Of a DNA stretch of 44,856 bases, positions 25,517-42,501 are shown in pieces. A model generated the notes under the pieces. That model ran no database searches, had not been told where the DNA came from, and saw only the letters and a program-made list of their open reading frames with translations. Origin of the DNA: Burkholderiales bacterium. Lineage in GTDB: Bacteria > Pseudomonadota > Gammaproteobacteria > Burkholderiales > SG8-41. Location: the NCBI GenBank assembly GCA_030833315.1, contig JAURHM010000024.1, forward strand, positions 1 through 44,856, read 5' to 3'. The translations under genes and the position numbers were made by a program. Within the stretch, counting starts at the first letter, position 1. Each line of letters begins with the position of its first letter.

Positions 25517-25540
25517 TCTTACTCCAGTAAGTTTGGCTGG

Positions 25541-26104: not shown

Positions 26105-27264
26105 TAGCTCAATCTATTCGAAAAGATATCGCGGAAATATCGAACATATCCATCCACTACATTCTGCTGTTCAAATTTAGACATCACCCGACTCCGGGCA
26201 GCGATTGCATACTGGCCTCGTTCCTCAGGTAGCTCACACCATAGCGTCATAAGCTTAGACAACTCTTCGATGTTCCCCACTGATACCAGCCTACCAGTAC
26301 GCCCTTCTTCAATAGCATCTGTGATTCCGTATATTCGAGTTCCGATTGCAGGGATACCAGCCGCCGCAGCCTCAAGAATAACCATACCAAAACCTTCACG
26401 GTAGCTAGGAAGGCACAAAAAATCCGCGACGGCGAGCTGTTTCTCTGGGTTATTGGTAAATCCTAAAATCCGCAATCGATCGCTTAATGGCTTTGGCACC
26501 AGTTCACGCAACCGAGCTTCCATTTCTTCTTCATCGGGGCCCGCAAGCATCAACCACAGGTCATCTCTAGAAGCCGCGCTGCGAACAAAGGCTTTGGCTA
26601 GATCAAGCACCCCCTTGTCAAACGCCAGCCGCCCCAAAAAGATACACACCACCGCGTGCTCCGGAATCCCCAACTCCGCTCGAACTTGTTTACGCAGCAC
26701 GGAATTAGGCCTGAACTTTTCAGTATCAACGCCACAGATAGACCCTGCACCCAATACCTGTAACTTGCCCACTGGTACAACATGTTCCCGCTCCAGAAAT
26801 CTCTTTTCACCCTCACTTACCGCCAAGACATGGGTAGCTAGGCGGGCCGTCACACCATCCATGAATTTGAGTAAAAAACACATCGGTCCACGCCGGGACG
26901 CCCAGACTTCACCCTGAAATATGTGCACTCGATGGGGAACACGAAGCAAGAAAGCCGCTAGCATGCCGAGCAAGCCAGCCTTGGGAACAACAGACACGAC
27001 GATGTCGAAACGCTCTCGCCCAAAGAGTCGGCACAATCTAAACAGTGCCAGCAGATCGCGCCAAGGTGCAATTTTTCGCTCTATCTCTACACCCACCTCC
27101 CGTACGGGCAAATCCAGCGGAGGCACATAAGTGTCGCAGTGGGGATTGCAGGCTAATGTCACCTCAAAGTAACTAGCCAACTCGCGCAAATGAGGCTTTA
27201 AAAAGAAGTGAATAGAGAGAGGTGTTGCCGCAAGCACGCACATCCGTGGAAGCCGGTTACTCAT
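26104..27264 (-). CDS. glycosyltransferase family 4 (GT-B)
   Basis: A 386-residue cytosolic glycosyltransferase. The N-terminal acceptor domain contains IHIFQGEVWASRR-like sequence near 120. The C-terminal donor domain has VCIFLGRLAFDKGVLDLAKAF and the retaining-enzyme E-x7-E motif in PSYREGFGMVILEAAAAGIPAIGT, with GITDAIEEGRTGRLV after it. It resembles enzymes that add the second sugar to an undecaprenyl-linked N-acetylhexosamine. Donor sugar unknown. It overlaps the GT2 gene upstream by four bases and the sugar transferase downstream by one. Confidence 0.92.
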   Translation of the reverse strand: MSNRLPRMCVLAATPLSIHFFLKPHLRELASYFEVTLACNPHCDTYVPPLDLPVREVGVEIERKIAPWRDLLALFRLCRLFGRERFDIVVSVVPKAGLLGMLAAFLLRVPHRVHIFQGEVWASRRGPMCFLLKFMDGVTARLATHVLAVSEGEKRFLEREHVVPVGKLQVLGAGSICGVDTEKFRPNSVLRKQVRAELGIPEHAVVCIFLGRLAFDKGVLDLAKAFVRSAASRDDLWLMLAGPDEEEMEARLRELVPKPLSDRLRILGFTNNPEKQLAVADFLCLPSYREGFGMVILEAAAAGIPAIGTRIYGITDAIEEGRTGRLVSVGNIEELSKLMTLWCELPEERGQYAIAARSRVMSKFEQQNVVDGYVRYFRDIFSNRLS

Positions 27265-28061
27265 CCCGCTATCCGCATAATCCAGAGACGGCGGAGGAAT
27301 TTAACCAATGACCAACCAATGGAAACGAAAAAGACAAACCAAGACAGGTTACGCTCGGCGCGTAACACTCGCAGCGCTGCCAACTCTCGCTTTTCGTGTG
27401 TCCAAAGTTGCCCGCTATAACCGCCGGGGCTGAAATCAGGCCGCAAAGAATATGCTAGGCACACCTCCATACGATATGCCGACATGTTTGCTGCAATGAT
27501 CTGTAGCCAGAGGAGATAGTCCTCCGTGACGGATCTTCCCTGAAAGCGGAATGGCAAGTCGCAACGTAACATCACCGAGCGGGTTGGTAGCCTGCAAGAA
27601 ACTAACATTTTGGACATTGTAAGTCGGGTGGCTTGGGGTTTGGTATCAACAGGGGGATCGATGCCCCCATCTGTGAATCGCGAGTCATGGCCGCACAGCA
27701 CCACATCGGGATGATCTAACAGCCACGCCCACTGAATCTCCAGTTTGCGCGGATGCCACACATCATCGGCATCCAGGAACGCCAGCCATGGTTGAGTGGA
27801 TGCATCCCAACCTGCATTGCGGGCTAAGCCCGGGCCACCGTTCTGCTTCAGAGAGATCACCCGTAAACGTGGTGCGTGCACCTTTTCGAATTGATGTAGA
27901 ACCTCCAGCGTTCCATCTCCACTAGCATCGTCAATGAGCAAAATTTCAGCAGGCTGAAGAGTTTGACTCAGAACTGAATTGAGCGCATAAACCACTTCAG
28001 CTTGGCATCGGTAACAAGGAATGACTACAGTAATTGGTGCATAGTGGCTGGGAACAGACAT
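27261..28061 (-). CDS. glycosyltransferase family 2
   Basis: A 266-residue GT-A glycosyltransferase. It has the nucleotide-binding start ITVVIPCYRCQAEVVYALNSVLSQ, the metal-binding stretch LLIDDASGDGT, NGGPGLARNAGWDAS and the DxD-type FLDADDVWHPRKLE near 100. A hydrophobic C-terminal segment (SWFVFFVSIGWSLVKFL) probably tethers it to the inner membrane. It lies downstream of the decayed polymerase gene and overlaps the next glycosyltransferase by four bases. Donor and acceptor unknown. Confidence 0.9.
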   Translation of the reverse strand: MSVPSHYAPITVVIPCYRCQAEVVYALNSVLSQTLQPAEILLIDDASGDGTLEVLHQFEKVHAPRLRVISLKQNGGPGLARNAGWDASTQPWLAFLDADDVWHPRKLEIQWAWLLDHPDVVLCGHDSRFTDGGIDPPVDTKPQATRLTMSKMLVSCRLPTRSVMLRCDLPFRFQGRSVTEDYLLWLQIIAANMSAYRMEVCLAYSLRPDFSPGGYSGQLWTHEKRELAALRVLRAERNLSWFVFFVSIGWSLVKFLRRLWIMRIAG

Positions 28062-28153
28062 GGAAGGATATTCAGAAGTTCAGGAATGTGAACAGGCTCG
28101 ATTTAAGAGTGCTTCCGCCTATTTGGACTCAATCACACAGATCAGCACGACGC

Positions 28154-28985
28154 TCATGAAAAAAAGATCAAGGCAGGCAATTGGCTTTTAAGCGAACCAC
28201 CAAAATGTGCAACTATTATTGACATTGACCAACCTGCGACTGCCGAAAGAACCGGATTGCGATTCGCCATATGCACAAACATCTCAGCATACTGCATAGC
28301 CACAACGAGTAAAGTCATAATGACGAACACGACCACCAAAAAACCTGAAAGATAAAGGAAGGCGATACCGTCGGGCAGGGACATAAAGCGAACGTTTTTG
28401 TTTAATTCATTTCCCTGAAGAGCGGGCCAAGGTGCGATCGTTGAATAAATTGATTCAGATTTGATGGAGGTGGCCAAGGTTGCACTTAAAAACAACGGTG
28501 GCAACCCCAAATACGGTCAGAATAAATAGAACCCAATTCCAGCGTCTAATGGACTTCAGCCACCTAGGACGTTCTTCTTCATCCATCTTCCCCTGTAAAG
28601 TTTTCAACCCCCCTGGCAGTGTCTCGAAAATAAACCGAGCACTCATAACAGCCAATGCCCCGATGTTAGAAATATGCAAAGCATGGTCCTAGTGTGATGC
28701 CGAGCCGCTGAACTGCCCGGTAGGCTCGGGATATCCGTTACTCCAAGCCAAATGCCACGACAACTTAAACATAAACCCAACCACAAGAATATCGTCAGGT
28801 ACGTGTAGCCATAGGTGCGATGCTTAACAAAAGCGCTTCCCAGCAACGCCATGAATGCATCCGAAAACAGCATATAAACAAACGCGCTGCCCTCATATTT
28901 TCTTAAGGCGATAAAAAACAAGACAGCGATGGGAACAGCACGCTCGATCTCATCAGCCTGCTCGGCTCGGGTCAGGGTTCTTCAT
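28154..28985 (-). pseudogene. decayed O-antigen/EPS polymerase-like (Wzy) membrane protein gene
   Basis: Read on the minus strand, three frames each hold convincing membrane-protein sequence that joins into one protein. The first, LFFIALRKYEGSAFVYMLF to YTYLTIFLWLG, runs in one frame. After a one-base loss near 28776 the sequence continues as FMFKLSWHLAWSNGYPEPTG. The codon TAG (28689-28691) then replaces the Trp expected in SASHxDHALHISNIGALAV, and that frame ends at 28455. Hydrophobic sequence (LYLSGFLVVVFVIMTLL) resumes in the first frame. A further extra base may separate the ribosome site and ATG at 28985 from the coding frame. The total is ~275 codons, shorter than normal Wzy proteins (over 400), so there is also a deletion. 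Calling it Wzy rests on the membrane pattern and locus context. Confidence 0.75.
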
Positions 28986-29030
28986 CGCTGCTTGCTCCTA
29001 ATTGCAATTGAAGCTTCGTAACTTCAATTT

Positions 29031-30146
29031 TTATAACTCCAGCTTCGCTATCACCCCATCCATCGCCGTTAGGAAACTCGTCCTTACCGCCGTTTCGCTA
29101 AAGCGCGAATCCTTCACGGGATTGCAACGCCCTTTTATGAGGGCCTGTTCCACGCCGGTAGCAATTGCGTCCGCATCAAAGGGGTCAAAGTAGCACGCAT
29201 AATCACCCGCTACCTCGTGCATTACCGGCAAATCCGAGCACGCCAGCGGTGCGCCCGCCTCCATAGCCTCAAGGCAAACTCTCCCGAAACCTTCGCAAAG
29301 TGATGGATATACAACGGCATCCGCCGCCGCGTAGGCCAAGCGCAACGCTGCGTCTGACAACTTGCCAGAGAAGGCAACGCGAGACCTAATATCCGTTGGG
29401 ATCTGCGCCAAGGTATCTCTCCAGCGCTGATCCTCGTTCCCGGTCACCAACAGAGTTAGGTCCGGGACTGTCTGGGTCACCTGTGCAAAAGCCTCGGCAA
29501 GTCGACCCACATTCTTGCGGAATTCCGAGCCGCCCGAATAGAGCACAAAGCGACCCCCCTGCGCAAAACGCCTCTTGAACTCCGCGACAGCGCCCGAGTC
29601 CGCCGCGTGGCTGAAGTGGGGCGTCAATGCGTTGCACACAACGCTGATTCGCTGCGAGGGGACGCCATAGCGCCGGGTCAGCTTGTCCCTGCTAGTCTGC
29701 GACACGGTAATGACATGAGACGCGCGACGCAAATTTCGCCGCAGCAAGGCAAGGTAATAAAGCCGAATGCGGCGCGGGTAAACAGTCGCCAGTTCATCTA
29801 AGCACAAATCATGCACGCCAATCACGCTGGGCACTACGCTGGGCATGCGCACGTCGTGGTAGGGGCTCATCACCAGGTCGGGACGCAGGCGGGCCCCCGC
29901 CCGGGGAAAGATCACATTGTCGTACCAAGGGTGCCGCAAAGGGCGTGGCAACCACTGCGGCCAGGCCACGTGTACGTGCTCCCAATTGCCACTGCGCGGC
30001 AGAAAGTCCTGATTGAAATCAGGCCCCAGCAGAAGAAAGTGTGCATCCGGCCGATGTTCGACCCATGCAGCCAGCAGCGGCGCAAACCAGTGGGCGATGC
30101 CACCCCCGTAGAGGGCGAGGTTTTTGGTGTCTATAAGAATGTGCAC
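29031..30146 (-). CDS. glycosyltransferase family 4 (GT-B)
   Basis: A 371-residue glycosyltransferase. It starts MHILIDTKNLALYGGGIAHW, has SVIGVHDLCLDE and HVITVSQTSRDKLTRRYGVP in the acceptor half, then FVLYSGGSEFRKNVGRLAEAF and the donor-site motif YPSLCEGFGRVCLEAMEAGAPLACSD with both Glu residues of E-x7-E. This is the pattern of mannosyl- and rhamnosyl-type transferases (WbaZ/MtfA-like). With a GDP-mannose enzyme in the locus, mannose is a reasonable but unproven donor. It is followed by the decayed polymerase gene. Confidence 0.92.
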   Translation of the reverse strand: MHILIDTKNLALYGGGIAHWFAPLLAAWVEHRPDAHFLLLGPDFNQDFLPRSGNWEHVHVAWPQWLPRPLRHPWYDNVIFPRAGARLRPDLVMSPYHDVRMPSVVPSVIGVHDLCLDELATVYPRRIRLYYLALLRRNLRRASHVITVSQTSRDKLTRRYGVPSQRISVVCNALTPHFSHAADSGAVAEFKRRFAQGGRFVLYSGGSEFRKNVGRLAEAFAQVTQTVPDLTLLVTGNEDQRWRDTLAQIPTDIRSRVAFSGKLSDAALRLAYAAADAVVYPSLCEGFGRVCLEAMEAGAPLACSDLPVMHEVAGDYACYFDPFDADAIATGVEQALIKGRCNPVKDSRFSETAVRTSFLTAMDGVIAKLEL

Positions 30147-30164
30147 AACGAGACAGCGTTACTT

Positions 30165-31145
30165 TTACTCATTACCCAATGGATTAATCCAGTGCGAATG
30201 ATGCGGGGGGTCCACTTTATCGGCCAAATTACGCAACCATGCGGCAGTCCGCCCTCGCCCCCGAATTTCGAACCCTTTCCCTTTTCGAGCATTCATTTCA
30301 GCCCACGCGCTGATTTCGGCAAATATCGTTGATGGCATCCATGCCGAATTCTGTTGCCCAAGGGTTACTTCGTAGGCCAAATCAAGATATCCATAGACCG
30401 CACAAAGCGCCCAGTAGTGAGCCAGCAACCTAAGTGGCTCCGCGGTGGATGTCAGAATATTTCGAAAGCTTTCAGGATCGCGGAAGTAAAGGGCATCAGC
30501 CGCCAGCAATTGCCCCTTGCGCCCGCCGAGAGATGCGCTATTTCGCCACTTATGACAAAGAAGATTGCCCAAGTCAACGAGCATGAACCCATGCTCTCTC
30601 ATGAATTCATCTACGTCAGAGTATAAGGGTTGTTCACGATATAGCGGGGTGAACTCAACCTCCAACTCCACCACCAGAAGTGTCGCCTGCAGACATCGCC
30701 TAGCACCCCGCAGTATGGCCAGTTCTGTACCTTGCGTATCAGCCTTCAGCGCTGCAATCTCGAGTTGTGCCGTTCGGCTCGCAGCATCAAGCGTCGTGCA
30801 AGGCACTGCAACCGTTTTCATCACATCAAAATCCGATGGATTCTGATAGATACGATCAACAATTGGCCGATTTGGCGGCAGCAGCGAAGTATTGGTTTGA
30901 TGGCGAGTAACCAAAAGCGAAATTTCCGTCTCCCGTTCCCCGAGTGCGGCATTGATCCAGACGCGGTCGCTACGCTCCGCGAGCAGGTCAAACTCCCGAT
31001 GATCTGGCTCAAAACCCAAAACCTTTAGATACCCACCCAGCCTCAACCACCGCTGATGTATCCCACCAGCAGCACCCGCATCAGCCAAAGTCAACGGGTG
31101 ATCAGACAGAACCGTGATAAGACAGGATGGAATGGTCGATTGCAT
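30165..31145 (-). CDS. FkbM-family methyltransferase
   Basis: A 326-residue predicted SAM-dependent O-methyltransferase. The SAM site is LADAGAAGGIHQRW at ~20-33, followed by KVLGFEPD (acidic end of strand 2), TLDAASRT and the FkbM signature ALKADTQGTELAILRGA near 150. FkbM-type enzymes in polysaccharide loci often O-methylate a sugar of the repeat unit or a chain end. About 100 residues after the catalytic domain are not typical of the minimal family and contain mixed helical sequence. It lies 18 bases before the next glycosyltransferase. Confidence 0.88.
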   Translation of the reverse strand: MQSTIPSCLITVLSDHPLTLADAGAAGGIHQRWLRLGGYLKVLGFEPDHREFDLLAERSDRVWINAALGERETEISLLVTRHQTNTSLLPPNRPIVDRIYQNPSDFDVMKTVAVPCTTLDAASRTAQLEIAALKADTQGTELAILRGARRCLQATLLVVELEVEFTPLYREQPLYSDVDEFMREHGFMLVDLGNLLCHKWRNSASLGGRKGQLLAADALYFRDPESFRNILTSTAEPLRLLAHYWALCAVYGYLDLAYEVTLGQQNSAWMPSTIFAEISAWAEMNARKGKGFEIRGRGRTAAWLRNLADKVDPPHHSHWINPLGNE

Positions 31146-31177
31146 AAGAACATTGAGATAGTTGAGTGAGATAGAAA

Positions 31178-32299
31178 TTACTTTGAACGCTCATTGGTAA
31201 CTGGCTCTACTCCGGGGTAAAGACTATAAAAAAGTTTGTCGTATTTAGCTGCAATTTTGCGCCAGTCAAACTTCATGGATTGCGTACGGGCGTTGGTACT
31301 CGGCGCGACATCCAGCACGCTCTCCAGTGCTCTTGCATAAGCCTGCGAATCGTGCACATCGCACAGGAGTCCGCCATCGTCCACCACATAGCGCTGGCGT
31401 GGCCCATCGTGCGCCACCACCGGCAGACCGGCCGCCATGGCCTCGACGAACACTATGCCGAACGCCTCTGCTGGTGAGGCCAACGAGAACACGTCGGCCC
31501 CTCGATAGACCTCCGGCATCTCGTAAAAAGTGTGTTGACAGAACTCAACCCTCCCCGCTTTCGCCAGCGGATGCTGCGCCAGCACGGCCCTGTGCGGGCC
31601 GGCGCCCACGCACTTGACCCAGACATGGCCCGGCATGCGCATGACCGCGTTGAACAGCAGATCGTGCCGCTTGTCCGGCACCAATGCAGCCGCGCAGAGA
31701 ATGACGCGCCGCGTTCGGCCGCGCCGGGAAGCACCCATGGGGACCGGTGCGAAGCGCCCGGTATCAACCCCGTTGGGGATGATGCATGTGGGCATGCCCG
31801 GCCGCATCTGGTTCGCCCGTTGCTCGTCGTGGGGCGTGAGCGCAACAAAAATATCACTGAGCGCTAGATCCTGCGGCACTGGACCTGCTTGACCGATGCC
31901 GACAAGCCGAGCTTCTGGAAATGCCTTGCTCGCGAAACGGTAGGACCACGAGCCGGCCAGCGGCACAACAAGGTCGAAAGCACTGGGCGACCAGTACTTG
32001 CGGTAGTGATACAGCAACGACAGGGTCTCGATATCCGCTGCACCACCAAGCCCCAGAGGACGCAGCAGCCGGCACAGCCACGGCAATCGGTCCAGCCAGG
32101 CTAGCCGCTCCCGCGCCAACAGTCGACCTTTTTGGAAATGCACGCCTGGGATTTCGGAGTCATGGGGCCCCGACAGCACCGTGACCGCATACCGCGAGGT
32201 ATCCATCCGGGACACCAGTTCCGTCACAAAGGCTTCCACCCCCCGGTGCACCGAGCCAAACCTCGGCACGATGAAGAGCAGGCGCAATGCGTGACTCAT
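31178..32299 (-). CDS. glycosyltransferase family 4 (GT-B)
   Basis: A 373-residue glycosyltransferase. The start LRLLFIVPRFGSVHRGVEAFVTELVSRM is typical of the acceptor domain. CIIPNGVDTGRFAPV leads into the donor domain, which carries RRVILCAAALVPDKRHDLLFNAV and the E-x7-E motif in SPAEAFGIVFVEAMAAGLPVVAHDGP. Donor and acceptor cannot be assigned. It lies downstream of the flippase, 54 bases away. Confidence 0.92.
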   Translation of the reverse strand: MSHALRLLFIVPRFGSVHRGVEAFVTELVSRMDTSRYAVTVLSGPHDSEIPGVHFQKGRLLARERLAWLDRLPWLCRLLRPLGLGGAADIETLSLLYHYRKYWSPSAFDLVVPLAGSWSYRFASKAFPEARLVGIGQAGPVPQDLALSDIFVALTPHDEQRANQMRPGMPTCIIPNGVDTGRFAPVPMGASRRGRTRRVILCAAALVPDKRHDLLFNAVMRMPGHVWVKCVGAGPHRAVLAQHPLAKAGRVEFCQHTFYEMPEVYRGADVFSLASPAEAFGIVFVEAMAAGLPVVAHDGPRQRYVVDDGGLLCDVHDSQAYARALESVLDVAPSTNARTQSMKFDWRKIAAKYDKLFYSLYPGVEPVTNERSK

Positions 32300-32353
32300 T
32301 CAATTACCTCACAAGCCAGGCCATAGAGGCCTTCATTATTCGGGGCATCCATC

Positions 32354-33847
32354 TCATCGGGTCCGCCCCAGTATCTGTCGAATATCAAGTATGCCTACCA
32401 CGCTGGCCATGACGGCGGCACTCGTGCCAAACACGGTCAAAGCAACCGCTAGGCCCGCCAGGGCGCCCCAGAAAGTTCCGCTGCCGGCCACCGGCGGAGT
32501 CACCCAAAGTGCAAGCAGAATCACTGCGCACGCACGCCATAGCCAGGCCCCGGCGGCACGTACATAACGGAACGGCTGGGCCGTGCCGCGCAGGAGCATG
32601 AATAGCACCACGAACAGGCCAACCGTATTGCCAATAGTCCAGTGCCATTGCACCAGCGCCACGCTGCCCAGCTCGCCGGCCAGCAGCACCATGGCCACGC
32701 CGCTGAGGGCGATGCTTGCGCCGACCATGGTCAAAGCGCGGCCGCGCCCTTGAGTGAGCAGGATCTTCCCTAAAATCGTCACTAGACTGATCGGAATAGC
32801 AGCGAAGACGGTGGCACGCAAGGCTTGGCTGGTTTGTGCCACGGAAGTTGCGTCAAATGATCCACGAGCGAACAAAGCTTCCACGATTTCCGACGCAAAG
32901 CGTCCGGCAAAGCTACAACATGCCAGCAGGGCCAGAGTCAGCGGAGCCACGACTCGGGCGGCCGTTTGGAGCATGGCGTCAGCATCACCCTGCTGCGCCT
33001 GCGCCAGAAAGCGCGGCCAGAGTAGATTAGCCATTGGAAAGGCCAGGAGGCTGATGAGCACATTGACCAACGCTACACTGTACTGGTAAGAGGCCACCAG
33101 CCCCGGCATCATGCCTAGCATGATGGTGCGCTCACACACCACGTATACCTGCGCCAGCAGATAGGCAAACAGCAAGGCCGAAAACACCGAGCGAAAGCGC
33201 GACTCTTTCCACAGGGCGTCGATACCACGCCAAACCCAGCGCATACCTTCGCGCTGCAACCCTACGATAGACACCAGCAGGGTGACAATCTGCGCAATTA
33301 GAAGGCTAAGCACTAACGCAAAAACTCCAATACGCCCGACCAGTAGCCATAAACAGGTCAGACCAATGAGCGCGGAGGCCAGCCGCGCTACGGCCTGGTA
33401 AACCACGCGATTGAAGCTCATCAACAAGCCGTTGCAGGTCTCGGCTATCGCATAAAGCAGAAAGTAAGGAAGGAAGCCGAGCCATAGGCTACTTTCGCCC
33501 GCTACATCCAAACCCACGCGCGCAATTAAGCCAGCGGGTGTCAACAACAATAAGGCCATAGAGGCCAATGCAAGCATAGCCTGGGCGGCCAGACCCGCTG
33601 AAAACAAAGCGGAGGCACTTTCTCTGTCCACGGCAGCGGCGGAGTACACAGGCGGCACCAGCGCCTCGCGCAGCGGCTGCACATAGAAAACCAGAAGGTT
33701 AGCCAGAGCGAAGAGCGCCCAGTAAGTGTCAAGCAACGCCGAGGTGCCTAAATGGTAGGACACCACCAGCTGATTACCGAAACTTAGCAGATACCCGGCC
33801 GCCGAGAGGATAAACAGCAGACCGAATCGCTTCTGGAAGTTGCTCAT
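32354..33847 (-). CDS. polysaccharide flippase (Wzx-type, MOP superfamily)
   Basis: A 497-residue inner-membrane protein with about 12-14 helices and almost no soluble domain, starting MSNFQKRFGLLFILSAAGYLLSFGNQLVVSYHLGTSALLDTYWALFALANLLVFYV. The alternating helices and short charged loops match lipid-linked-oligosaccharide flippases (Wzx/MurJ-like) that turn the undecaprenyl-linked repeat to the periplasm. Its presence, with an initiating transferase and a polymerase remnant, marks a Wzx/Wzy-type pathway rather than an ABC-transporter one. Confidence 0.9.
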   Translation of the reverse strand: MSNFQKRFGLLFILSAAGYLLSFGNQLVVSYHLGTSALLDTYWALFALANLLVFYVQPLREALVPPVYSAAAVDRESASALFSAGLAAQAMLALASMALLLLTPAGLIARVGLDVAGESSLWLGFLPYFLLYAIAETCNGLLMSFNRVVYQAVARLASALIGLTCLWLLVGRIGVFALVLSLLIAQIVTLLVSIVGLQREGMRWVWRGIDALWKESRFRSVFSALLFAYLLAQVYVVCERTIMLGMMPGLVASYQYSVALVNVLISLLAFPMANLLWPRFLAQAQQGDADAMLQTAARVVAPLTLALLACCSFAGRFASEIVEALFARGSFDATSVAQTSQALRATVFAAIPISLVTILGKILLTQGRGRALTMVGASIALSGVAMVLLAGELGSVALVQWHWTIGNTVGLFVVLFMLLRGTAQPFRYVRAAGAWLWRACAVILLALWVTPPVAGSGTFWGALAGLAVALTVFGTSAAVMASVVGILDIRQILGRTR

Positions 33848-33906
33848 CGGCTACAAGGATCGGCCATGAAATTCCCCACTTGCCCTGGGGTACATGCTGA
33901 AATGGC

Positions 33907-35016
33907 TCATGAGCGACGAAAGAGATCGCGCATCTTGTCGAGCGCGCCCAAGAAAACAGCCAGGCTCAACAGAGCCAAAGATGCCAATCGACCTAAAAGC
34001 TTTGTATATACGCCGCCCGATGAGCAAACCAATGCCCGACCAGCGCTAGCCACTGCGGCACCCGACAGATTCAATGCCACGAGCGCTGAAAAACAATCCT
34101 CCGGGCGCAGCGCCACGAGTTTGCGTGATTGCCGCACAAGGTCGAGCAAACGCTCCGCCCGGTGCCTATAGGTATGATTTTCCAAAACGTGGCGGCGAGC
34201 GGCGTCACCGATGCGTCGACAACGCTCCGGATCCTGCAGCAAGCCACGGATCAAGGCGAGCAGCGTCAGTTCATCGCGGTACTCTAGGTAATGCTCGCCA
34301 GCATTGAACAGGTCCTCGACGCCGTTATCCCGGGCATGGTCGGTGAGCAGCACCGCGCCGGCGCCCATGGCCTCGAAATAGCGCATGTTGACATCGTTGT
34401 TCACGCTCTTATTGAACACCATCTTCGCCTTAGCATAAACACGTCCCATTTCCTGTGGGCTGGTCATGCCCATGAAGACGTTGGGAAAGTCCTTGCAGAT
34501 CGCGCTCAACAAAGCATGCCGAACCGGGTGCACGGTAGCGCTATTGCTGCCCACATAGGCCACATCATGACAACGATGCATTTCCTTTTGTGGATAAAGT
34601 TCCGGCGCGCACGCCAGCGGCAACCAGTACACCTGCCGCAGTCCATCTTGTCGCAAACGCTCGACAAATTCCTTCTGCGCGACGAAGGTCATGTCGAACA
34701 GGCGACCGATGCGTAGATGCTTGGCATAGTCCATGTGGGTGTCAATGCCGTACCAGGCCGTGAGGCAGGACATGCGCTCCAGCCCCGTCGGGAAGAGGCG
34801 CATGGTGCCACCCTCGACGAAAAGCATGAGATCCGGCACTAGCCCGTGGCGGGCACAGACCTGCGTCACGTCCACCGCACCGCGCACCCGCAGGCTGTCC
34901 AGCGGACTGGCGACGTCAGAGCAGACGAACAGCTCGTGCCCTGCTTCCCTCATCGCGGTAATCAGGTAGTTGCCGGTGGTGGTCGGGGTCAGCGATGCGA
35001 CAAGAAGAATTTTCAC
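33907..35016 (-). CDS. CgeB-like glycosyltransferase
   Basis: A 369-residue GT-B protein resembling the CgeB / Glyco_trans_1_2 group. It starts MKILLVASLTPTTTGNYLITAMREAGHEL. In the middle LTAWYGIDTHMDYAKHLRIGRLFDMTFVAQKEF is the typical DxHxxY region. The C-terminal half has VAYVGSNSATVHPVR, KMVFNKSVNNDVNMRYFEAMGAGAVLLTD and ENHTYRHRAERLLDLV. An unusual hydrophobic segment near the C-terminus (GRLASLALLSLAVFLGALDKM) may anchor it to the membrane. Donor unknown. Confidence 0.88.
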   Translation of the reverse strand: MKILLVASLTPTTTGNYLITAMREAGHELFVCSDVASPLDSLRVRGAVDVTQVCARHGLVPDLMLFVEGGTMRLFPTGLERMSCLTAWYGIDTHMDYAKHLRIGRLFDMTFVAQKEFVERLRQDGLRQVYWLPLACAPELYPQKEMHRCHDVAYVGSNSATVHPVRHALLSAICKDFPNVFMGMTSPQEMGRVYAKAKMVFNKSVNNDVNMRYFEAMGAGAVLLTDHARDNGVEDLFNAGEHYLEYRDELTLLALIRGLLQDPERCRRIGDAARRHVLENHTYRHRAERLLDLVRQSRKLVALRPEDCFSALVALNLSGAAVASAGRALVCSSGGVYTKLLGRLASLALLSLAVFLGALDKMRDLFRRS

Positions 35017-35037
35017 GTCCCGGCTCTCCTCAGGCCA

Positions 35038-35817
35038 TCATTGCGGCGCGCGGCTCTTCACCGACAGGAAACCGTTCGACCATTTCTTGCGGAAGTAGGC
35101 GGTATTCTTTTCGTGCAAGGCAACAGTGTCGATGGTCTTGTGCAGGTAGGCGATGTCCACCTTCTGGGCGCTGACGCCGTGGTGATGGAAGTGCTTGATG
35201 TTCACCCCGGGATGCACGACGCACTTGAGCCCTGCCTGCCGGATGCGGAAGCTGAAGTCGATCTCTTCATAGCCGGCGGGGGAGTATTCGACATCAAAGC
35301 CGCCCAGCCGGCGGAAGGTGGCGGAGCGCACAAGGAAGCAGAAGCCAGACACCACGTCGGACTCGACCGGCTGCTCGCCCTCGGCATAGCTGTTGTGCTG
35401 GAGGTTCTCCCAGTAGGAGCCAGCGGGGCCCACCTCTCCCACCTGCGCATCGTCGAACAGGGCGCACAGTGGTTCGATCGCATCCTTGCCCACTTGCACG
35501 TCATCATTCAGGTAGCAGAGGATGTCCCCCTCGGCCATATCAGCGCCCATGTTCCAGGAGCGTGCCACGCCGACGTTGACGCTGTTCAGGCAGTACTTGT
35601 CGATGTGCGGGTGGGTGGCGACGAACTCCACCAGCTCCTGGTCCTGCCCGTTGCAGACCACAATCACTTCGTGCGGCAGGCTCACGTTGTCGTGCAGGTC
35701 GCGCAGCACGTCGGGCAGGGTGTAGCGCGGCATGAAAAAGCGCGCCTTGTTGAGCGGGCGCTTGAGGTGCAGCACGGGAATGATGAAGCTGACTTTGGGT
35801 TGCGGTGCGGTAGTCAT
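35038..35817 (-). CDS. glycosyltransferase family 2
   Basis: A 259-residue GT-A glycosyltransferase. VSFIIPVLHLKRPL at the start, EVIVVCNGQDQELVEF, NVGVARSWNMGADMAEGDILCYLNDDVQVG (the DxD-like NDD) near 100, and the acceptor-side GGFDVEYSPAGYEEIDFSFRIRQAG near 195 mark a rhamnosyltransferase-like inverting enzyme. No membrane segment. It overlaps the upstream glycosyltransferase gene by four bases (ATGA), so the two are translated together. Confidence 0.91.
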   Translation of the reverse strand: MTTAPQPKVSFIIPVLHLKRPLNKARFFMPRYTLPDVLRDLHDNVSLPHEVIVVCNGQDQELVEFVATHPHIDKYCLNSVNVGVARSWNMGADMAEGDILCYLNDDVQVGKDAIEPLCALFDDAQVGEVGPAGSYWENLQHNSYAEGEQPVESDVVSGFCFLVRSATFRRLGGFDVEYSPAGYEEIDFSFRIRQAGLKCVVHPGVNIKHFHHHGVSAQKVDIAYLHKTIDTVALHEKNTAYFRKKWSNGFLSVKSRAPQ

Positions 35818-36779
35818 GGCCTGAGCTGTTCAATGGTGTCCCAGAACTCATCATTGGCCCGGGCGAAGTTGGCCGGATTGCCGATGTCAAATGGGAAAGA
35901 GGTGGCACCGACGTTTCCGTTGGTGATGAGTTGGCAGCCACACAGCGCGGCTTCGGTCACTACTCGACCCTGCGGCTCGGGCCAACGCGGTAGGAAGACG
36001 AAGTGTTTCGCCCGGTTCATGAAATTGGGGATTTCGCTGTAGGGCACGCTGCCGTGCCAAGTGCCGAAGTCTAGTTTCTCCCCCGGTACGATCTTGCCAA
36101 CGAAATGGATGTTGGCACCACGGAAACGCTCGCGCATGGCAGCCAAGCCCTTGGCCTCACCAATGACGCCAACGAAAAGGTAGTCAATGTCGCGCTCACG
36201 ACGCTGGTTATAGAAGACGGTGCCATCGATTGTGGGCTTGAGTACAAACGATACCCGACCTCGATCTTCGCCCAGAATGCCTTCGATGGTACGCTGGTGC
36301 AGAGGAGATAGATAAACGTTGAGCGCAGACCTAGCGAAAAGCTTGCGCACCAGTGGGTCGAGTGCAAAACATTGCTGCCCAAAATCACGCAGCGCTAGGT
36401 TATGCACCAAATGCAGCGGCGATTTGTAAGCACACCGAGCCTGCGAATGTCCGGAACATGGCAGGTGCCCGAGGTTACAGACGTCCACATAGGCGTTGCT
36501 CATATGGATGAAGGGACGATTGTCTACAATATCTTCCAGCAAGTCTGGTTCAAAACGCAGCCATGCACCGCGGCTCTTGAGGGTCTGCGGGAAATTAAAA
36601 ACATCCACTAACCAGTACAGGTCTGCCTGGCCGGTGCCTTCATCCACACGTGGGCGGATCGAGCGTAGACAAATGGTGTGGCCACGCCTTCTCCCCGCCT
36701 CGATTAACGCGCGGGTGATCATTTCCCCGCCACCGCCATGAATGATGGGGTTGAAGTAGGAAAGGCAGTCGATCTTCAT
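35814..36779 (-). CDS. glycosyltransferase (GT-B, family 1/4-like)
   Basis: A 321-residue protein starting MKIDCLSYFNPIIHGGGGEMITRALIEAG, a glycine-rich acceptor-domain loop. The donor half has VSFVLKPTIDGTVFYNQ, DIDYLFVGVIGEAKGLAAM and FVFLPRWPEPQGRVVTEAALCGCQLITN, where E-P-Q-G-R-V-V-T-E supplies the two-Glu motif. It is shorter than most GT4 enzymes, so the fold is a compact variant. It lies 16 bases behind the UDP-xylose synthase gene. Donor unknown; xylose or glucuronate are obvious candidates from context only. Confidence 0.85.
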   Translation of the reverse strand: MKIDCLSYFNPIIHGGGGEMITRALIEAGRRRGHTICLRSIRPRVDEGTGQADLYWLVDVFNFPQTLKSRGAWLRFEPDLLEDIVDNRPFIHMSNAYVDVCNLGHLPCSGHSQARCAYKSPLHLVHNLALRDFGQQCFALDPLVRKLFARSALNVYLSPLHQRTIEGILGEDRGRVSFVLKPTIDGTVFYNQRRERDIDYLFVGVIGEAKGLAAMRERFRGANIHFVGKIVPGEKLDFGTWHGSVPYSEIPNFMNRAKHFVFLPRWPEPQGRVVTEAALCGCQLITNGNVGATSFPFDIGNPANFARANDEFWDTIEQLRP

Positions 36780-36795
36780 CGGTTGTCGCGCCGCT

Positions 36796-37779
36796 TCAGT
36801 CCCCGCTGGCGAGCAGCTGGTCGAAGTAGGCGATGGTCTTTTTCAGGCCTTCGTCCAGCTGCACCTGGGGCGCCCAGCCGCCCAGGCGCTCTTTCGCTCG
36901 CGTGATGTCGGGCTGGCGCTGCATGGGGTCGTCGGCCGGCAGGGGCTGGAAGACCAGCTTCGATCTGGCGCCGGTCAGGGCGATGACTTTCTCAGCCAGC
37001 TGGCGGATGGTGAACTCGCCGGGGTTGCCCAGGTTGATGGGGCCGGGGAAGCCGGGCGCGCCGTCGGCGCCGCGGGGGATGTCCATGAAGCGGATGAAGC
37101 CTTCCACTAGATCATCAACATAGCAGAAGCTACGGGTCTGCTGGCCTTCGCCGTAGATAGTGATCGACTCGCCACGCAGAGCCTGCACGATGAAATTGCT
37201 GACCACGCGACCGTCATTGGGGTGCATGCGAGGACCGTAGGTGTTGAAAATGCGAGCAACGCGGATATCCAATCCGTATTGTCGGTGGTAGTCGAAAAAC
37301 AGGGTTTCGGCACAGCGCTTGCCTTCGTCGTAGCAACTGCGGATGCCGATGGGATTGACATTGCCCCAGTAGGCTTCGGTCTGGGGGTGTACGGCGGGAT
37401 CCCCATAGACTTCGCTGGTGCTAGCCTGAAAAATGAGAGCCTTGAGGCGCTTGGCCAAGCCCAGCATGTTGATGGCGCCATGCACGCTGGTCTTGGTAGT
37501 CTGCACGGGGTCGTGCTGGTAGTGAACAGGGCTGGCAGGGCAGGCTAGGTTGTAGATTTGGTCCACCTCGACATATAAGGGGAACGTGACATCGTGGCGA
37601 ATAAATTCGAAGCGCGGGTTATCAACTAGGTGCTCAATATTGCGCTTGCTGCCGGTAAAGAGGTTGTCAGCGCATATGACCTCGTCGCCACGTTCTAGCA
37701 GGCGGTCTATGAGATGCGAGCCTAGGAAGCCGGCACCACCGGTAACGAGAATGCGCTTGCGTGGGTTGTAGTTTCTCAT
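36796..37779 (-). CDS. UDP-glucuronate decarboxylase (UDP-xylose synthase)
   Basis: An extended short-chain dehydrogenase of 327 residues from MRNYNPRK. It converts UDP-glucuronate to UDP-xylose with NAD bound in [18 protein letters not shown]. Family marks are [38 protein letters not shown], the YxxxK pair in [12 protein letters not shown], and [22 protein letters not shown]. Six further upstream codons are open (start at 37797), but AGGAC sits well placed for the start used. It follows directly on ugd, whose product is its substrate. Confidence 0.94.
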
Positions 37780-37783
37780 GGGT

Positions 37784-38950
37784 TCAGTCCTGTCCAAAGA
37801 GGTCGCGGGTGTAGACCTTGTGCTGTACGTCGCGGATCTGGTCGGTCAACCGATTAGCTATGATGACATCCGCCTCCCTCTTGAAAGCAGCCAAGTCGTT
37901 GACAACGCGAGAGTGAAAGAACTCCGGCCCCTTCATGACGGGCTCGTAGATAATGACTTCAACCCCCTTGCCCTTGAGCCGCTTCATGATTCCTTGCACG
38001 CTACTGGCGCGGTAGTTGTCGGAGCCAGCTTTCATGACCAGGCGATAGACGCCCACAGTGCGCGGCTGGCGCGCCAAGATGTCTTGGGCCACGAAGTCCT
38101 TGCGGGTACTGTTGGCTTGGACGATAGCGCCGATGAGGGTCTGCGGCACGTCCTGATAGTTGGCTAGGAGTTGCTTGGTATCCTTAGGTAGGCAGTAGCC
38201 GCCGTAGCCGAAGCTGGGATTGTTGTAGTAGTTGCCAATGCGCGGATCCATACTAACACCCTGAATGATTTGCTGAGTATCAAGCCCATGAATAGCAGCA
38301 TAAGTATCGAGCTCATTGAAATAAGCCACCCGCATGGCAAGGTAGGTATTGGCAAATAGCTTGATCGCTTCAGCCTCTGTGCTGTCAGTAAAAAGCACAG
38401 GAACGTCCTTGCGGATAGCAGCCTGCTGCAGCAAATCAGCAAAGATTCGAGCACGCTCGGACTGTTCGCCAACGATGATACGTGAGGGATGCAGGTTGTC
38501 GTACAAGGCGCGGCCTTCGCGAAGAAATTCGGGGGAAAAGATCAGGCTGTCGCAACCCAGCTGCTTGCAAGTGCGCAGCGTGTAGCCGACGGGAATGGTG
38601 GACTTGATGACCATGGTGGCCGCCGGATTGATGGCCATCACGTCGCGAATCACGGATTCGATCGAGCGGGTATTGAAGTAATTGGTGTCCGGGTCGTAAT
38701 CGGTCGGCGTGGCGATGATGACGAAGTCCGCGCCCGCGTAGGCGGCCTGCTTGTCCAGGGTGGCGGTGAGCCGCAGCGGTTTGTTGCGCAGGTATTCCTC
38801 AAGCTCCGCGTCCTCGATCGGTGATTCGCGCCGCTGCAACATGGCCACCTTTTCAGGCACCACATCAAGCAATACGATGTCATTATTTTGTGATAGTAGA
38901 ACAGCGTTAGACAAGCCAACGTAGCCAGCACCGACAACAGCGATTTTCAT
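37784..38950 (-). CDS. ugd: UDP-glucose 6-dehydrogenase
   Basis: A 388-residue cytosolic enzyme that oxidises UDP-glucose to UDP-glucuronate with NAD. Dinucleotide-binding [21 protein letters not shown] is at the start, then [27 protein letters not shown], the substrate segment [24 protein letters not shown] and the catalytic Cys in [14 protein letters not shown]. This is the short, MMPJ-type Ugd typical of capsule and O-antigen loci. Start MKIAVV is preferred over an upstream Met four codons earlier. Its product feeds the next gene. Confidence 0.95.
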
Positions 38951-39032
38951 TCTTTTCCTCATAAAGGACGCTTCAGAAATTCTTTGAAATCACAGCAAAT
39001 GTTTACATAATTATTGGACTTAGGTTTCATGC

Positions 39033-40478
39033 TTAGCTGCGGCCGTAGGCGTCATCAAGCCGGACTATGTCGTCTTCGCTCAAGTAGCTGCCCGATTGCA
39101 CCTCGATGATTTCCAGCGGAATGTTGCCGGGATTGGCAAGGCGATGCACCACGCCGAGCGGGATGTAGGTGGACTGGTTTTCGGTAAGCAGCACTTTTTT
39201 GTCGGCGCAGGTGATTTCAGCCGTGCCGCTGACGACCACCCAGTGCTCGGCGCGGTGGTGGTGCTTTTGCAGGCTGAGGCTAGCACCGGGCTTGACTTGT
39301 ATGCGCTTGACTTTGAAGCGGCCGCCTTCGTCGATGCTGTCGTACCAGCCCCATGGGCGGTGGACTTTGCGGTGCAGGGTGTGCTCTTCGCGCACTTGCT
39401 GCTGCAGTGCGTTGACGATGTGCTTGACGTCCTGGCTGCGTGACCGGTCGGCTACCAAGACAGCGTCGGGCGTTTCCACCACCACCAGGTTTTGAACGCC
39501 AACCAAGGCCACCAGGCGGCTGGTGGAATGCACCAGGGTGTTGCTGCAGTCGATAGCCAGCACGTCGCCCACATGGGCGTTGCCCTGTGCGTCTTTGGGC
39601 AAGACGCTCCACACGGCGTCCCAGGCGCCGAGGTCGCTCCAGCCGGCATTGAGCGGAGCCATGCGAATGGGGAAGCGGCTACCAGGGCACCGTTCCATGA
39701 CGGCGTAGTCGATGGAGTCACTGGGTATGGCGGCAAACTCGGCCTGGCAAGGCCGAACGAATGCGGCATCGGTGCTGCGCTGGGCCCAGGCGGCGCGGGT
39801 GGTGGCTGCCATATCAGGCCGGAAGCTTTCGATGGCCTGGAGCCAGACGGACGCCTTGAGCACGAACATACCGGCGTTCCAGTAGTATCCGCCTTCAGCC
39901 AAGTACTGCCTGGCGGTGGCTTCATCGGGTTTTTCGACAAACCGCTTGACCAACAAGGTGGCCGTAGGCGCCACAACGGCCTGGATGTAGCCGTAGCCGG
40001 TTTCGGGGCGGTCGGGAGCGATACCCAGGATCACGATGGCGCCCTCTGCCGCCTGACGTATAGCGTCATGCATGGCTTCATTGAACACCCTGGCGTCTGC
40101 CACGGTCTGGTCTGCCGGTGAGACAACCAGCACGGGGTCGTCGCCGTTTTCCACGGCAGCCAGTGCGGCCAGGGTCAACGCAGGGGCGGTGTTTCGGGCC
40201 ACCGGCTCCAACAGGGCGGCAGCCGGTGATATGCCGATTTCACGCAACTGCTCCAGTGCCAGAAACCGATGGTCTTCACCCGTCACGACAAGGGGATTAG
40301 CCACCTGAATGCTTTCAGCGCCCAGACTCATCAATCGTTTCGCAGCTTGCTGAAACAGGCTTTCGGCCCCCGTCAGGCAAAGGAACTGCTTTGGGAAACC
40401 TGCGCGCGAGAGCGGCCACAGGCGAGTGCCAGAGCCACCACACAGAATAACGGGCTGTACCTTGGTCTTATTGGTCAT
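39033..40478 (-). CDS. manC: bifunctional mannose-1-phosphate guanylyltransferase / mannose-6-phosphate isomerase
   Basis: A 481-residue type II PMI/GMP enzyme. The N-terminal nucleotidyltransferase has [23 protein letters not shown] and the FVEKPD signature. The C-terminal cupin isomerase has [32 protein letters not shown]-type sequence, [18 protein letters not shown] and a late [12 protein letters not shown]. It makes GDP-mannose from fructose 6-phosphate/mannose 6-phosphate for the locus. Its ATG overlaps the end of the broken galE by four bases (ATGA), so disruption of galE could weaken its translation. No GDP-mannose dehydratase gene is present in the window, so mannose itself is probably used. 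Confidence 0.95.
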
Positions 40479-41271
40479 GAAGCAACCCTCAACTCCACCA
40501 ACTGCTGGAATCGCCATGCTCTGACACACATGTCTTCCAATGTGCGCGTAGCACTCCAATTCAATCGTTCGCTGGCCTTCTTTGGGTCTGCATAGCATGC
40601 GGCCACATCACCCGCACGGCGGGCAACCACCTTGCATGGCACTTGGCGGCCAGATGCTTTTTCAAATGCCTGGACCATGTCAAGCACGCTGTAGCCCATC
40701 CCTGTGCCCAGGTTGATAGCATGCCAACCGGTGGTTTGAGACAAGAAACTCAACGCAGCTGCGTGCCCATCTGCTAAGTCCATTAAATGGATGTAATCCC
40801 TCACGCCCGTAACATCGGCAGTGGGATAGTTGTTACCAAACACTCTCAGTTCAGCGCGCCGGCCAGAAGCCACTTGGGCGATGTAGGGCATTAGGTTGTT
40901 GGGCACCCCGTTAGGTTTCTCACCAATCAGGCCGACTGCATCGCCTGCAGCAAGCTGAAGGTGCCTTGAACGTTGTTGGCGTAATAGTCGACCGGCTTTT
41001 CAACGGACTCGCCAACGGCTTTTAAACCAGCAAAGTGAATGACAGCATCAATATGGTGAGCGGCGAGCCTGCCTTTTAGCAGCTCGGTATCACGCACATC
41101 GCCGTTAATGAAGCGGATTTGTTGCCCAGTGATTTGGGAAAGTTTTTCGAGAACGGATTTACTACTATTTGACAGGTTGTCATACAAGACAATTTGATAC
41201 CCTAACTGCGACAGCACGACTGCTGTGTGACTACCAATGTAGCCCGTTCCGTCTGTGAGCAGCACATTCAT
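40475..41271 (-). pseudogene. galE: UDP-glucose 4-epimerase, internally deleted
   Basis: The N-terminal part (114 residues, MNVLLTDGTGYIGSHTAVVL to [12 protein letters not shown]) ends at TGA 40927-40929. The C-terminal part continues in another frame from [20 protein letters not shown] to the stop at 40475. Compared with E. coli GalE, the segment of about residues 115-186 is absent, which includes the catalytic Ser124 and the Tyr149-x-x-x-Lys153 pair. The loss is also out of frame. No active epimerase can be made. Both remaining halves are otherwise well preserved, so the event looks recent. Its start overlaps the stop of the MarR gene by four bases. Confidence 0.9.
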
Positions 41272-41654
41272 GGGCTTTGTCGGCCTTTTTTAGAACACAC
41301 TTCACATTCAAGCTCAGACTGCAATGCATCAATTCCGGCTTGAAGCGTTTCATACTCCACCACCTTCCACCTCAAAAATTCCGCCGTGAGTTTGGACTTT
41401 TCTGCCACCCCGGCAGGCGTGAGCAAATTGGCATAACGCAGCTTGTTCTTGCTCTGGCTGAAGTTCTGCATTTTCACCAAGACCTTTTCCACCAGGGCCT
41501 GGAAGCAGAAATTGATCGTGCCAAGCCTCACCCCCAGATCCCTGGCCAGCGCACGCTGACTGACCTGGGGCGTTTGATACAAACGACGCAGGACTTCGAA
41601 CTGAATTTCCTTTAGGAACCCAGCCAATTTCTGAAGTGGGGATACGAGGCTCAA
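41268..41654 (-). CDS. MarR-family EPS-associated transcriptional regulator
   Basis: A 128-residue winged-helix protein. The core FEVLRRLYQTPQVSQRALARDLGVRLGTINFCFQALVEK and NFSQSKNKLRYANLLTPAGVAEKSKLTAEFLRWKVVEYETLQ match the EPS-associated MarR family (TIGR04176-type) found at the head of exopolysaccharide loci. The C-terminus ends in a Cys-containing tail. The start is uncertain: the TTG at 41654 has no good ribosome site and the family usually begins near residue 14. The ops element lies 10 bases before that TTG, so the regulator is the first gene in the RfaH-controlled transcript. It overlaps galE by four bases. Confidence 0.85.
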   Translation of the reverse strand: MSLVSPLQKLAGFLKEIQFEVLRRLYQTPQVSQRALARDLGVRLGTINFCFQALVEKVLVKMQNFSQSKNKLRYANLLTPAGVAEKSKLTAEFLRWKVVEYETLQAGIDALQSELECEVCSKKGRQSP

Positions 41655-41659
41655 GGCGG

Positions 41660-41677
41660 TTTAGGCACGCTACCGCC
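41660..41677 (-). promoter_or_regulatory. ops element (RfaH recruitment and pause site)
   Basis: The minus strand reads GGCGGTAGCGTGCCTAAA at 41677-41660. The first 13 bases equal the enterobacterial ops element GGCGGTAGCGTGC, and the following five also match the E. coli example I recall. At ops RNA polymerase pauses and RfaH loads onto the exposed non-template strand, suppressing termination in long operons. It sits in the leader of the MarR gene and downstream of rfaH. The upstream half of the longer JUMPstart sequence is not recognisable. The six outer bases also pair with ACCGCC at 41655-41660 (plus-strand GGCGGT), giving a possible stem around the element. Confidence 0.9.
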
Positions 41678-41754
41678 ATGCCGTTTCACGATCAGCAAGC
41701 GCGGTCAGCGGGTTTTAAAAGGGGTCCGGAGCAATAAAGTGCGGCCTAGGGGTG

Positions 41755-41812
41755 CTTCCTCAAGCTCGACGGACGAGCTGCAATCTAGCACACCGTCATG
41801 ACTTTGAGGAAG
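41755..41812. repeat. nested inverted repeats between rfaH and ops
   Basis: A 9-bp outer stem CTTCCTCAA/TTGAGGAAG (41755-41763 with 41804-41812) surrounds a 6-bp inner stem AGCTCG/CGAGCT (41763-41768 with 41774-41779). GTTTTTTG follows the outer arm on the plus strand. Its place between rfaH and the locus suggests a role in separating or regulating the two, but on the sense strand it lacks a terminal T tract. No convincing promoter for the downstream operon was found in 41678-41848. Confidence 0.45.
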
Positions 41813-41848
41813 GTTTTTTGCCAAACAGGCAATAACGCCGCAGGTTTA

Positions 41849-42346: not shown

Positions 42347-42382
42347 CGCCACCTCCGAAGGTTAACGGTTGCCCTTAAATAC

Positions 42383-42458
<76 letters not shown>

Positions 42459-42472
42459 GAAACGTGGATCGG

Positions 42473-42501
42473 ATTTTACCCGCTCGATCTACCTGCTGCA
42501 A
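42473..42501 (-). promoter_or_regulatory. sigma-70 promoter of tRNA-Ala and probably rfaH
   Basis: On the minus strand TTGCAG (42496-42501) and TAAAAT (42473-42478) are spaced by exactly 17 bases. Transcription would begin about 8 bases before the tRNA. No terminator is seen between the tRNA and rfaH, so read-through into rfaH is likely. Confidence 0.65.

Follow-up and report, generated by a model that had tools for sequence, protein, structure and literature searches.

The polysaccharide locus in the window, i.e., the whole stretch of 44,856 nt of DNA analyzed, is headed by a gene for an RfaH protein, followed by a small covarying stem-loop and an exact copy of the ops sequence. With a probability of a little under 0.8, this arrangement represents a self-contained RfaH antitermination cassette, JUMPstart-like in form, which heads an acquired polysaccharide operon and travels with its target. 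The anatomy of the cassette, its linkage and conservation, the covariation and register of its stem and its patchy distribution were observed directly and are presented below.

Organization of the locus and its ops site

The order on the minus strand is lgt, tRNA-Ala(cgc), rfaH, a gap of 171 nt, ops, the gene of a MarR_EPS regulator and polysaccharide genes down to position 23579 (Table 1). The first gene (43590-42769, minus strand), which was matched in relatives, is one that we take to be lgt in our own judgment. The ATG start of rfaH is probably the one preceded by GGAGG. The MarR_EPS protein belongs to TIGR04176 (126.3 bits vs. a cut-off of 88); the TTG start of its gene is uncertain, and a Shine-Dalgarno sequence is not obvious by eye. 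The cluster behind it spans 18 kb, with intergenic gaps of -124 to +92 nt and one exception of 520 nt, and encodes GalE (in two ORFs), ManC/GMP-PMI, a UDP-glucose dehydrogenase, an epimerase, glycosyltransferases, a MurJ-like flippase, an FkbM methyltransferase, a sugar phosphotransferase and a CapD-like protein. The galE gene is split into ORFs 40475-40906 and 40927-41271 (minus strand), with N- and C-terminal parts, and is either an interrupted gene or an assembly error; the manC ORF overlaps the galE end.

Table 1. Features at the head of the polysaccharide locus (window positions).
Feature	Positions	Strand	Basis or remark
tRNA-Ala(cgc)	42383..42458	-	adjoins rfaH; right boundary of the block that two sister genomes lack
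rfaH, 165 aa	41849..42346	-	TIGR01955; ATG after GGAGG
Extended -10-like block TGTGCTAGATT	41782..41792	-	conserved in an alignment of 16 rfaH-ops spacers
Conserved GCGCT	41698..41702	-	directly 5' of the stem
Stem-loop TGCTG-ATCGTGAAA-CGGCA, 5 bp, 9-nt loop	41679..41697	-	covariation and consensus
ops element GGCGGTAGCGTG	41666..41677	-	exact 12-mer match
MarR_EPS regulator	41268..41654	-	TIGR04176; first gene after ops
Co-directional polysaccharide cluster	23579..41271	-	profile matches, ORF layout

In the preliminary description, an 18-base match to ops and its E. coli 3' neighbors was reported here. Its location is right, the 18 bases being 41677..41660 on the minus strand, which had been left unstated. 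As for the match itself, the 12-mer is identical, but the 3' neighbors are not: CCTAAA follows in the window, CATTAA in E. coli rfb and CTTTTT in waaQ, and beyond the 12-mer the first C alone is common to all three sites. The rfaH gene does lie where it had been placed, some 170 bases upstream (end at 41849), and is on the same strand. A search of the whole window returned a single exact match to GGCGGTAGCGTG, in leader position on the coding strand of the polysaccharide operon. In the draft genome, of 3.1 Mb in 105 contigs, there are four exact 12-mers against about 0.55 expected; three lie within ORFs of 512, 553, and 408 codons, and only that of the window, at the start of a 111-codon ORF overlapping the MarR_EPS gene out of phase, is outside any ORF of more than 400 codons. 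What makes the window ops more than a chance match is where it lies, the conserved 30 nt on its 5' side and the covarying stem.

An extended -10-like block, TGTGGCACAAT in most relatives and TGTGCTAGATT in the window, is found 105 nt before ops and is likely the promoter of the polysaccharide operon. A consensus promoter scan did not report this block, and no intrinsic terminator was found by a scan of 41500-42760. A long imperfect inverted repeat, CTTCCTCAA...TTGAGGAAG, is present on the minus strand of the rfaH-ops spacer (41730-41830) and overlaps the -10 block; as read by eye, its T run is on the plus-strand side only. Another repeat, GTTCG...CGAAC, stands where the leader probably begins and is kept by several relatives in the alignment of 16 spacers.

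Regarding the origin of the block, two congeneric genomes carry lgt, tRNA-Ala(cgc), two acyl-CoA dehydrogenase genes and recG in the same order, with a tRNA-to-dehydrogenase distance of 6.1 and 1.8 kb vs. 21.9 kb in the window; neither RfaH (at E 1e-25) nor the element was found in these two, and the polysaccharide cluster is missing. In two genomes of a sister genus lgt was found, the arrangement not being found in the stretches examined, and the four relatives gave no match to trhO, which lies at the other end of the block. The G+C content of the block (24-42 kb) is 53-59% vs. 61-63% at 6-21 kb, and at 1-6 kb it is 57-59% too. The window RfaH is 89-92% identical to those of loci L080, L098, L128, and L099. 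In L099, a Hydrogenophilaceae MAG, RfaH is 92% identical to that of the window whereas lgt from the same contig is 60% identical, a difference that points to transfer. Acquisition of the block next to a tRNA gene would fit these observations, with MAG binning errors limiting claims about families. Genes for tRNA-Phe(gaa) or tRNA-Ala(cgc), which are possible insertion sites, are found no more than a few kb from the cassettes of L080, L281, L099, and the window.

The stem-loop and its register to the ops pause

The full unit reads GCGCTTGCYG-ATCGTGAMA-CRGCA-N-GGCGGTAGCGTG, the 3' edge of the stem-loop in the window lying 1 nt before ops. The locus-borne RfaH/ops module put forward in the preliminary description is supported, but this hairpin half of the signal had been missed. 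Among the leaders of 30 MarR_EPS loci (the window and 29 from the order sample), exact ops occurs in five, the remainder being at least four mismatches off, and the upstream sequence is common to four of the five, L012 differing. In L012 (G064), exact ops is found upstream of MarR_EPS without the beta-type extension, and another possible hairpin, GGTCA-AGTC-TGACC, is found a few nt further upstream of ops.

A pattern derived from the elements beside MarR_EPS genes, with no selection for RfaH, was used to scan the genome_contigs collection (named genomes). This RfaH-blind pattern, ATCGTGNNANNNNNNGGCGGTAGCGTG, in which the stem positions are free, was matched exactly and returned 66 sites. The upstream consensus GCGCTTGCYGATCGTGNMACRGCAN, which reaches 3 bases further 5', is matched at 21 or more of its 28 positions in 62 of the 66, 7 of the 28 being fixed by the scan pattern; the sites below this level are L074, L100, L119, and L134. 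By record title, 45 of the 66 are from Betaproteobacteria. Herbaspirillum sp. 3R11 and Castellaniella caeni are examples of cultured environmental bacteria that carry the element. The remainder come from methanotrophic or other Gammaproteobacteria, from unspecific proteobacteria, or from metagenome bins with titles such as Bacteroidetes, Akkermansia, or Nitrospira, and these last bins may be misbinned.

The stem was assessed in an unselected set of 55 rows, 54 of them distinct, with the four odd sites kept (alignment A3 omits L074, L100, L119, and L134, which are kept in A1, and adds others). In this set, 94.8% of the cells of the 5-bp stem are paired, and both sides change together at all five pairs. 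Double-change cells number 20 against 6.6 in shuffles (0 of 500 shuffles as high), and slid versions of the stem yield at most three. The changes are concentrated at one pair (C-G to U-A in 15), with one or two at each of the others. Folded alone, the window hairpin reaches -4.0 kcal/mol, which is no better than shuffles (154 of 200 as good), and the 42-mer reaches -16.3 kcal/mol, with 9 of 200 shuffles equally good. An alternative helix obtained from folding the 42-mer (columns 17-21/28-32) was rejected: it has no double changes, although the pattern largely fixed its 5' side.

The window element has the geometry of JUMPstart, i.e., a 5-bp stem-loop whose 3' edge lies 1 nt before ops. The rfb and waaQ leaders of E. 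coli have a 5-bp stem ending 1 nt before ops, an equally long one at offset 0 also being possible, and the stem of the Rfam JUMPstart consensus (RF01707), likewise of 5 bp, ends at the same place. The score of the window element against RF01707 is 13.8 bits, from the ops part only, vs. a gathering threshold of 35; a search over 1.2 kb gave no match at E up to 10, and the threshold was reached in none of the 12 beta-type and 17 gamma loci searched. The register is found among the 26 gamma-type sites (23 downstream of rfaH and 3 upstream): in 19 of them, a stem of 5 bp or more, containing no more than one G-U, has its 3' edge exactly 1 nt before ops, vs. a mean of 2.7 and a maximum of 8 in dinucleotide shuffles. 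Such stems number 11 at offset 2 and 7 at offset 3, largely as sub-stems, and 0 to 5 at other offsets. Since the loops of the 19 stems vary from 4 to 17 nt while the offset to ops stays fixed, the conserved feature across the gamma sites is the position of the 3' edge of the stem.

From this edge to the ops pause (U11/T11) there are 12 nt, the pause having been placed at U11 (PMC11001881). Sequences resembling ops are reported to cause pausing of diverse polymerases (PMC7593976), and in assays with E. coli RfaH its recruitment shows as a delay at G12/C13. As RNA duplexes 11-12 nt before the RNA 3' end are described as making pauses about tenfold longer (PMC12288461), the hairpin would, by analogy, prolong pausing at ops. 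On the other hand, the E. coli ops-paused complex is described as biochemically distinct from complexes stabilized by RNA hairpins, and the hairpin in the non-template strand as locking the pause with no extra inputs needed (PMC11001881).

Instead of acting on the pause, the hairpin RNA could be bound by RfaH or some other protein, as dfn is by LoaP. In the beta type, the loop ATCGTGAMA hardly varies, which is more conservation than a pause hairpin needs, and LoaP is reported to need a leader RNA hairpin (PMC12691694). This invariance is, however, partly built in because ATCGTG was required by the scan, and the 19 gamma loops differ in sequence as well as length at a fixed distance from ops, which suits a spacing rule better; a binding site is held to be unlikely. 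It is also conceivable that GCGCT, which could pair with AGCGT of ops, does so in the finished RNA, the whole fold then shaping the 5' leader or hiding or exposing the start of the first gene. The GCGC 5' of the stem is conserved in the beta type and present in the Rfam JUMPstart consensus, and the stability of the 42-mer given above speaks for such a fold. The outer helix shows no double changes, none being possible with ops fixed in the set, and GCGC is, by eye, missing at that place in most gamma sites, which makes a role of the finished RNA improbable.

Linkage of rfaH with ops and properties of RfaH

In the scan of named genomes, rfaH lies within 600 nt on the same strand in 20 of the 53 sites with at least 1 kb of upstream sequence and within 600 nt in 3 of the 13 with less. 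Short flanks included, 43 of the 66 sites have no same-strand rfaH within 600 nt, and in a few of these the gene is divergent, 0.75-4 kb upstream, or downstream. The MarR_EPS start is within 600 nt downstream in 27 of the 50 sites with a flank of at least 900 nt. By accession, six scanned genomes have two sites each (L079 and L137 in Pusillimonas minor, L083 and L127 in Tepidicella, L086 and L096, L077 and L135, L099 and L131, L097 and L134), and one RfaH may therefore serve several sites. Going by these counts, the hairpin-ops element is often not linked to rfaH.

In the order sample, RfaH is present in 8 of the 9 genomes with a strong element (at least 43 bits, a line set after a gap down to 33 bits was seen) vs. 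15 of 200 overall (hypergeometric p 1e-9); the element model R1 was built including elements of several genomes later matched, and those match by construction. G063 has a strong element, with no RfaH at E 1e-25, and in G018 and G109 RfaH is divergent, only about 34% identical, and on another contig. Some R1 match at E 0.1 is found in 66 of the 200 order genomes, nearly all weak, and 7 of the 15 RfaH-bearing order genomes are without a strong element. With R1, the window is the sole strong match of the class sample, others reaching at most 27.2 bits; the evidence from gamma loci therefore rests on exact ops.

The class-wide sample has RfaH in 62 of 274 genomes at E 1e-25. A set of 73 rfaH loci was composed of 61 class-sample matches (that of the window excluded), together with 12 out of 17 from the order sample. 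The five order-sample matches outside this set (the window, G006, G043, G129, and the first of three in G087) have ops downstream, that of G087 lying within an included stretch. Over the 342 kb scanned, exact ops is found downstream on the same strand in 24 of the 73 loci, with none on the opposite strand and no exact copy of the reversed pattern. One-mismatch versions do not exceed the control (3 for ops vs. 5 for the reversed pattern), and the excess is thus limited to exact copies. In the class sample, 22 of the 61 loci have an exact ops no more than 6 kb downstream and on the same strand vs. 0.02 expected, with none on the opposite strand; five of the 61 have less than 700 nt of downstream sequence. 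In 49 of the 73 loci, the downstream DNA examined holds no exact ops. Co-occurrence across genomes, which had been suggested as a check, is thereby supported, as is the proposal that the module travels with its target operon: the single RfaH and the single non-coding ops of the draft genome adjoin, the congeners lack RfaH, and the pairing of rfaH with the element recurs in other genera and orders.

The gamma loci differ in layout. In 12 of 21, the rfaH-ops interval holds a same-strand ORF of about 200-225 codons; all four such ORFs scanned match the winged-helix HTH_24, and of four scanned with NCBIfam three match TIGR04176 below its cut-off, L232 giving no match. The cassette is therefore often, as far as these profiles tell, made of three parts, rfaH, a MarR-like gene and hairpin-ops, in two orders. 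The scanned genes directly after gamma ops are mostly those of sugar enzymes or a lipid-linked exporter. In some gamma loci ops precedes rfaH, by 8 nt from the ORF in L203 and with a MarR_EPS gene between in L240 and L246, which suggests self-loading of RfaH on its own transcript. L267 (G134) has, on its minus strand, a partial rfaH match (473-739) beside a one-mismatch ops and a full rfaH (5980-6465) some 5.7 kb upstream, a layout that looks like an insertion of DNA between two copies of a duplicated rfaH. In L098, L128, and L268, two different same-strand RfaH genes lie about 4.4 kb apart, their products having 90 or 84% and about 56% identity with the window RfaH, and only the nearer gene is directly before the hairpin-ops element.

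The window protein is a member of TIGR01955 (164.5 bits vs. a cut-off of 144.5), passing the RfaH cut-offs and not those of UpxY or LoaP. It is the one RfaH of the genome above the curated cut-off; a weaker second match (57 bits) is presumably NusG. Compared with E. coli RfaH, K10, R23, Q24, T72, E48, I93, R138, and L142 are kept, and H20 is changed to N, R73 to K, N70-A71 to R-S and F130 to Y. Duplicates and seven RfaH ORFs in which no start motif turned up were omitted from the list for alignment A2. Among ops-linked RfaHs, K10 is found in 44 of 46, Q24 and T72 in all 46, N20 in 39 (24 of 24 beta and 15 of 22 gamma), and R70 and S71 in 45 each, position 73 being variable. Those without ops found downstream, a group of 31 which includes L203, L240, and L246 with ops upstream of rfaH, have N20 in 22, R70 in 28 and S71 in 28. 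Since unlinked RfaHs share N20, R70, and S71, E. coli may be the exception at the ops-reading positions. In E. coli RfaH, change of H20 or R73 to alanine is reported to weaken recruitment dramatically (PMC5995543); because the 12-mer is identical and these residues differ, locus-borne RfaHs would read ops in another mode, or more weakly.

AlphaFold2 (AF2) modeled the C-terminal domain of the window RfaH as a beta-barrel (mean pLDDT 85) and not as the autoinhibited helix. With a smaller alignment, residues 137-148 had a pLDDT below 50, and the predicted beta form is only a hint. According to a 2026 preprint, beta-form RfaHs adjoin long operons and act like an ops-independent variant (PMC13015549). 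Together with the loss of H20 and R73, this linkage to neighboring operons and the beta-form models would agree with a cis factor that loads without ops, the sequence being merely a pause or a relic. Such a factor would, however, leave the exact 12-mer downstream in so many class-sample loci unaccounted for, one-mismatch versions being without excess, and this exact-only excess implies that bases 3 to 8 are under strong selection as well; in E. coli, these bases are reported to be important to RfaH but not to pausing (PMC5995543). Loading without ops consequently has a low probability. If the window RfaH is a beta form, the exact ops alongside is the unexpected part. Mere coincidence of a 12-mer with rfaH, to which the three further genomic copies might lend color, is practically negligible given that these copies sit in long ORFs and given the class-sample count, the 30-nt extension, the covariation and the repeated linkage.

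Proposed mechanism and relation to known systems

The functional steps of the proposed cassette, i.e., promoter, pausing, binding of RfaH, role of the hairpin and effect on expression, are taken from E. coli RfaH and would run as follows. RNA polymerase would start at the promoter between rfaH and ops, transcribe the 5-bp hairpin and, 12 nt on, pause at T11 of ops, where the hairpin in the RNA exit channel may hold the paused complex or block backtracking. The ops bases of the non-template strand would then capture RfaH made from the neighboring gene; RfaH would stay on the polymerase, exclude NusG and Rho, and allow the 18-kb operon to be read to its end. RfaH-assisted ribosome loading on MarR_EPS would fit as well, since this first gene has no clear ribosome site. 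Points against the cassette are that H20 and R73 are not kept, that the AF2 model is of the beta form and that many sites are unlinked. A broader reading, held tentatively and at somewhat less than even odds, is that ops is the 3' half of a bipartite signal, made of an exit-channel hairpin 12 nt before the pause and non-template bases, that has been kept across Beta- and Gammaproteobacteria while the stem and loop sequences drift. Locus-borne RfaHs would read this signal via K10, N20, R70, S71, and T72, unlike E. coli, and sequence-specific loading at ops would date to a cis-linked stage and not only to trans-acting RfaH.

The closest known system is JUMPstart (RF01707)/ops of enterobacterial O-antigen and LPS core operons. 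As in the window, a 5-bp stem lies 1 nt before the identical 12-mer, the loop is of 9 nt in both E. coli leaders (rfb and waaQ), GCGC precedes the stem in the Rfam consensus and the element is in the leader of polysaccharide operons. In contrast, the stem and loop sequences of the window differ, leaving it below the Rfam threshold, and rfaH is adjacent, whereas the enterobacterial gene is elsewhere on the chromosome. JUMPstart with its stem-loop has been published for Gammaproteobacteria (PMC2864571), and, according to a review, the leader of the brp exopolysaccharide operon of Vibrio vulnificus holds an ops site (PMC7819879). Locus-borne RfaH near polysaccharide genes is already known: the clusters CL2-CL8 have rfaH beside envelope-polysaccharide genes, and CL4 has a MarR-like HTH neighbor, the likeness to the window lying in gene neighborhood (Wang et al., 2020, PMC7593976). 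In the parts of that survey available to us, ops next to these rfaH genes is not reported.

Other specialized NusG paralogs activating particular long operons are UpxY from Bacteroides, TaA from Myxococcus and LoaP from Bacillus, the first two being encoded inside their target operons (PMC7593976); the parts of the literature available to us do not state the use of ops for any of the three. In NusG-dependent pausing of B. subtilis, a non-template DNA motif is likewise combined with an RNA hairpin that precedes the 3' end by 11-12 nt, with housekeeping NusG and a T-rich motif, however, in place of a specialized paralog and ops (PMC12288461). Among the open-licence papers listed in a literature search, no description was found of a JUMPstart-like element or ops in Betaproteobacteria, of ops beside locus-borne rfaH as a rule, of a fixed 12-nt hairpin register, or of hairpin-ops beside a locus-borne RfaH with reading residues other than those of E. 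coli.

According to the 2020 survey, E. coli RfaH is the sole representative whose mode of recruitment is known in detail, and recruitment of operon-encoded NusG paralogs is stated there to be unknown (PMC7593976). Exact ops downstream of rfaH in 22 of the 61 class-sample loci offers a direct, testable answer for many of these paralogs. The fixed register of the hairpin is a candidate reason for the length of JUMPstart, about 39 nt rather than 12, and the presence of different DNA-reading residues on an identical ops offers a natural way to test how specificity is achieved. Finally, a model of the element would help annotators to find RfaH-linked polysaccharide loci that are missed by Rfam.
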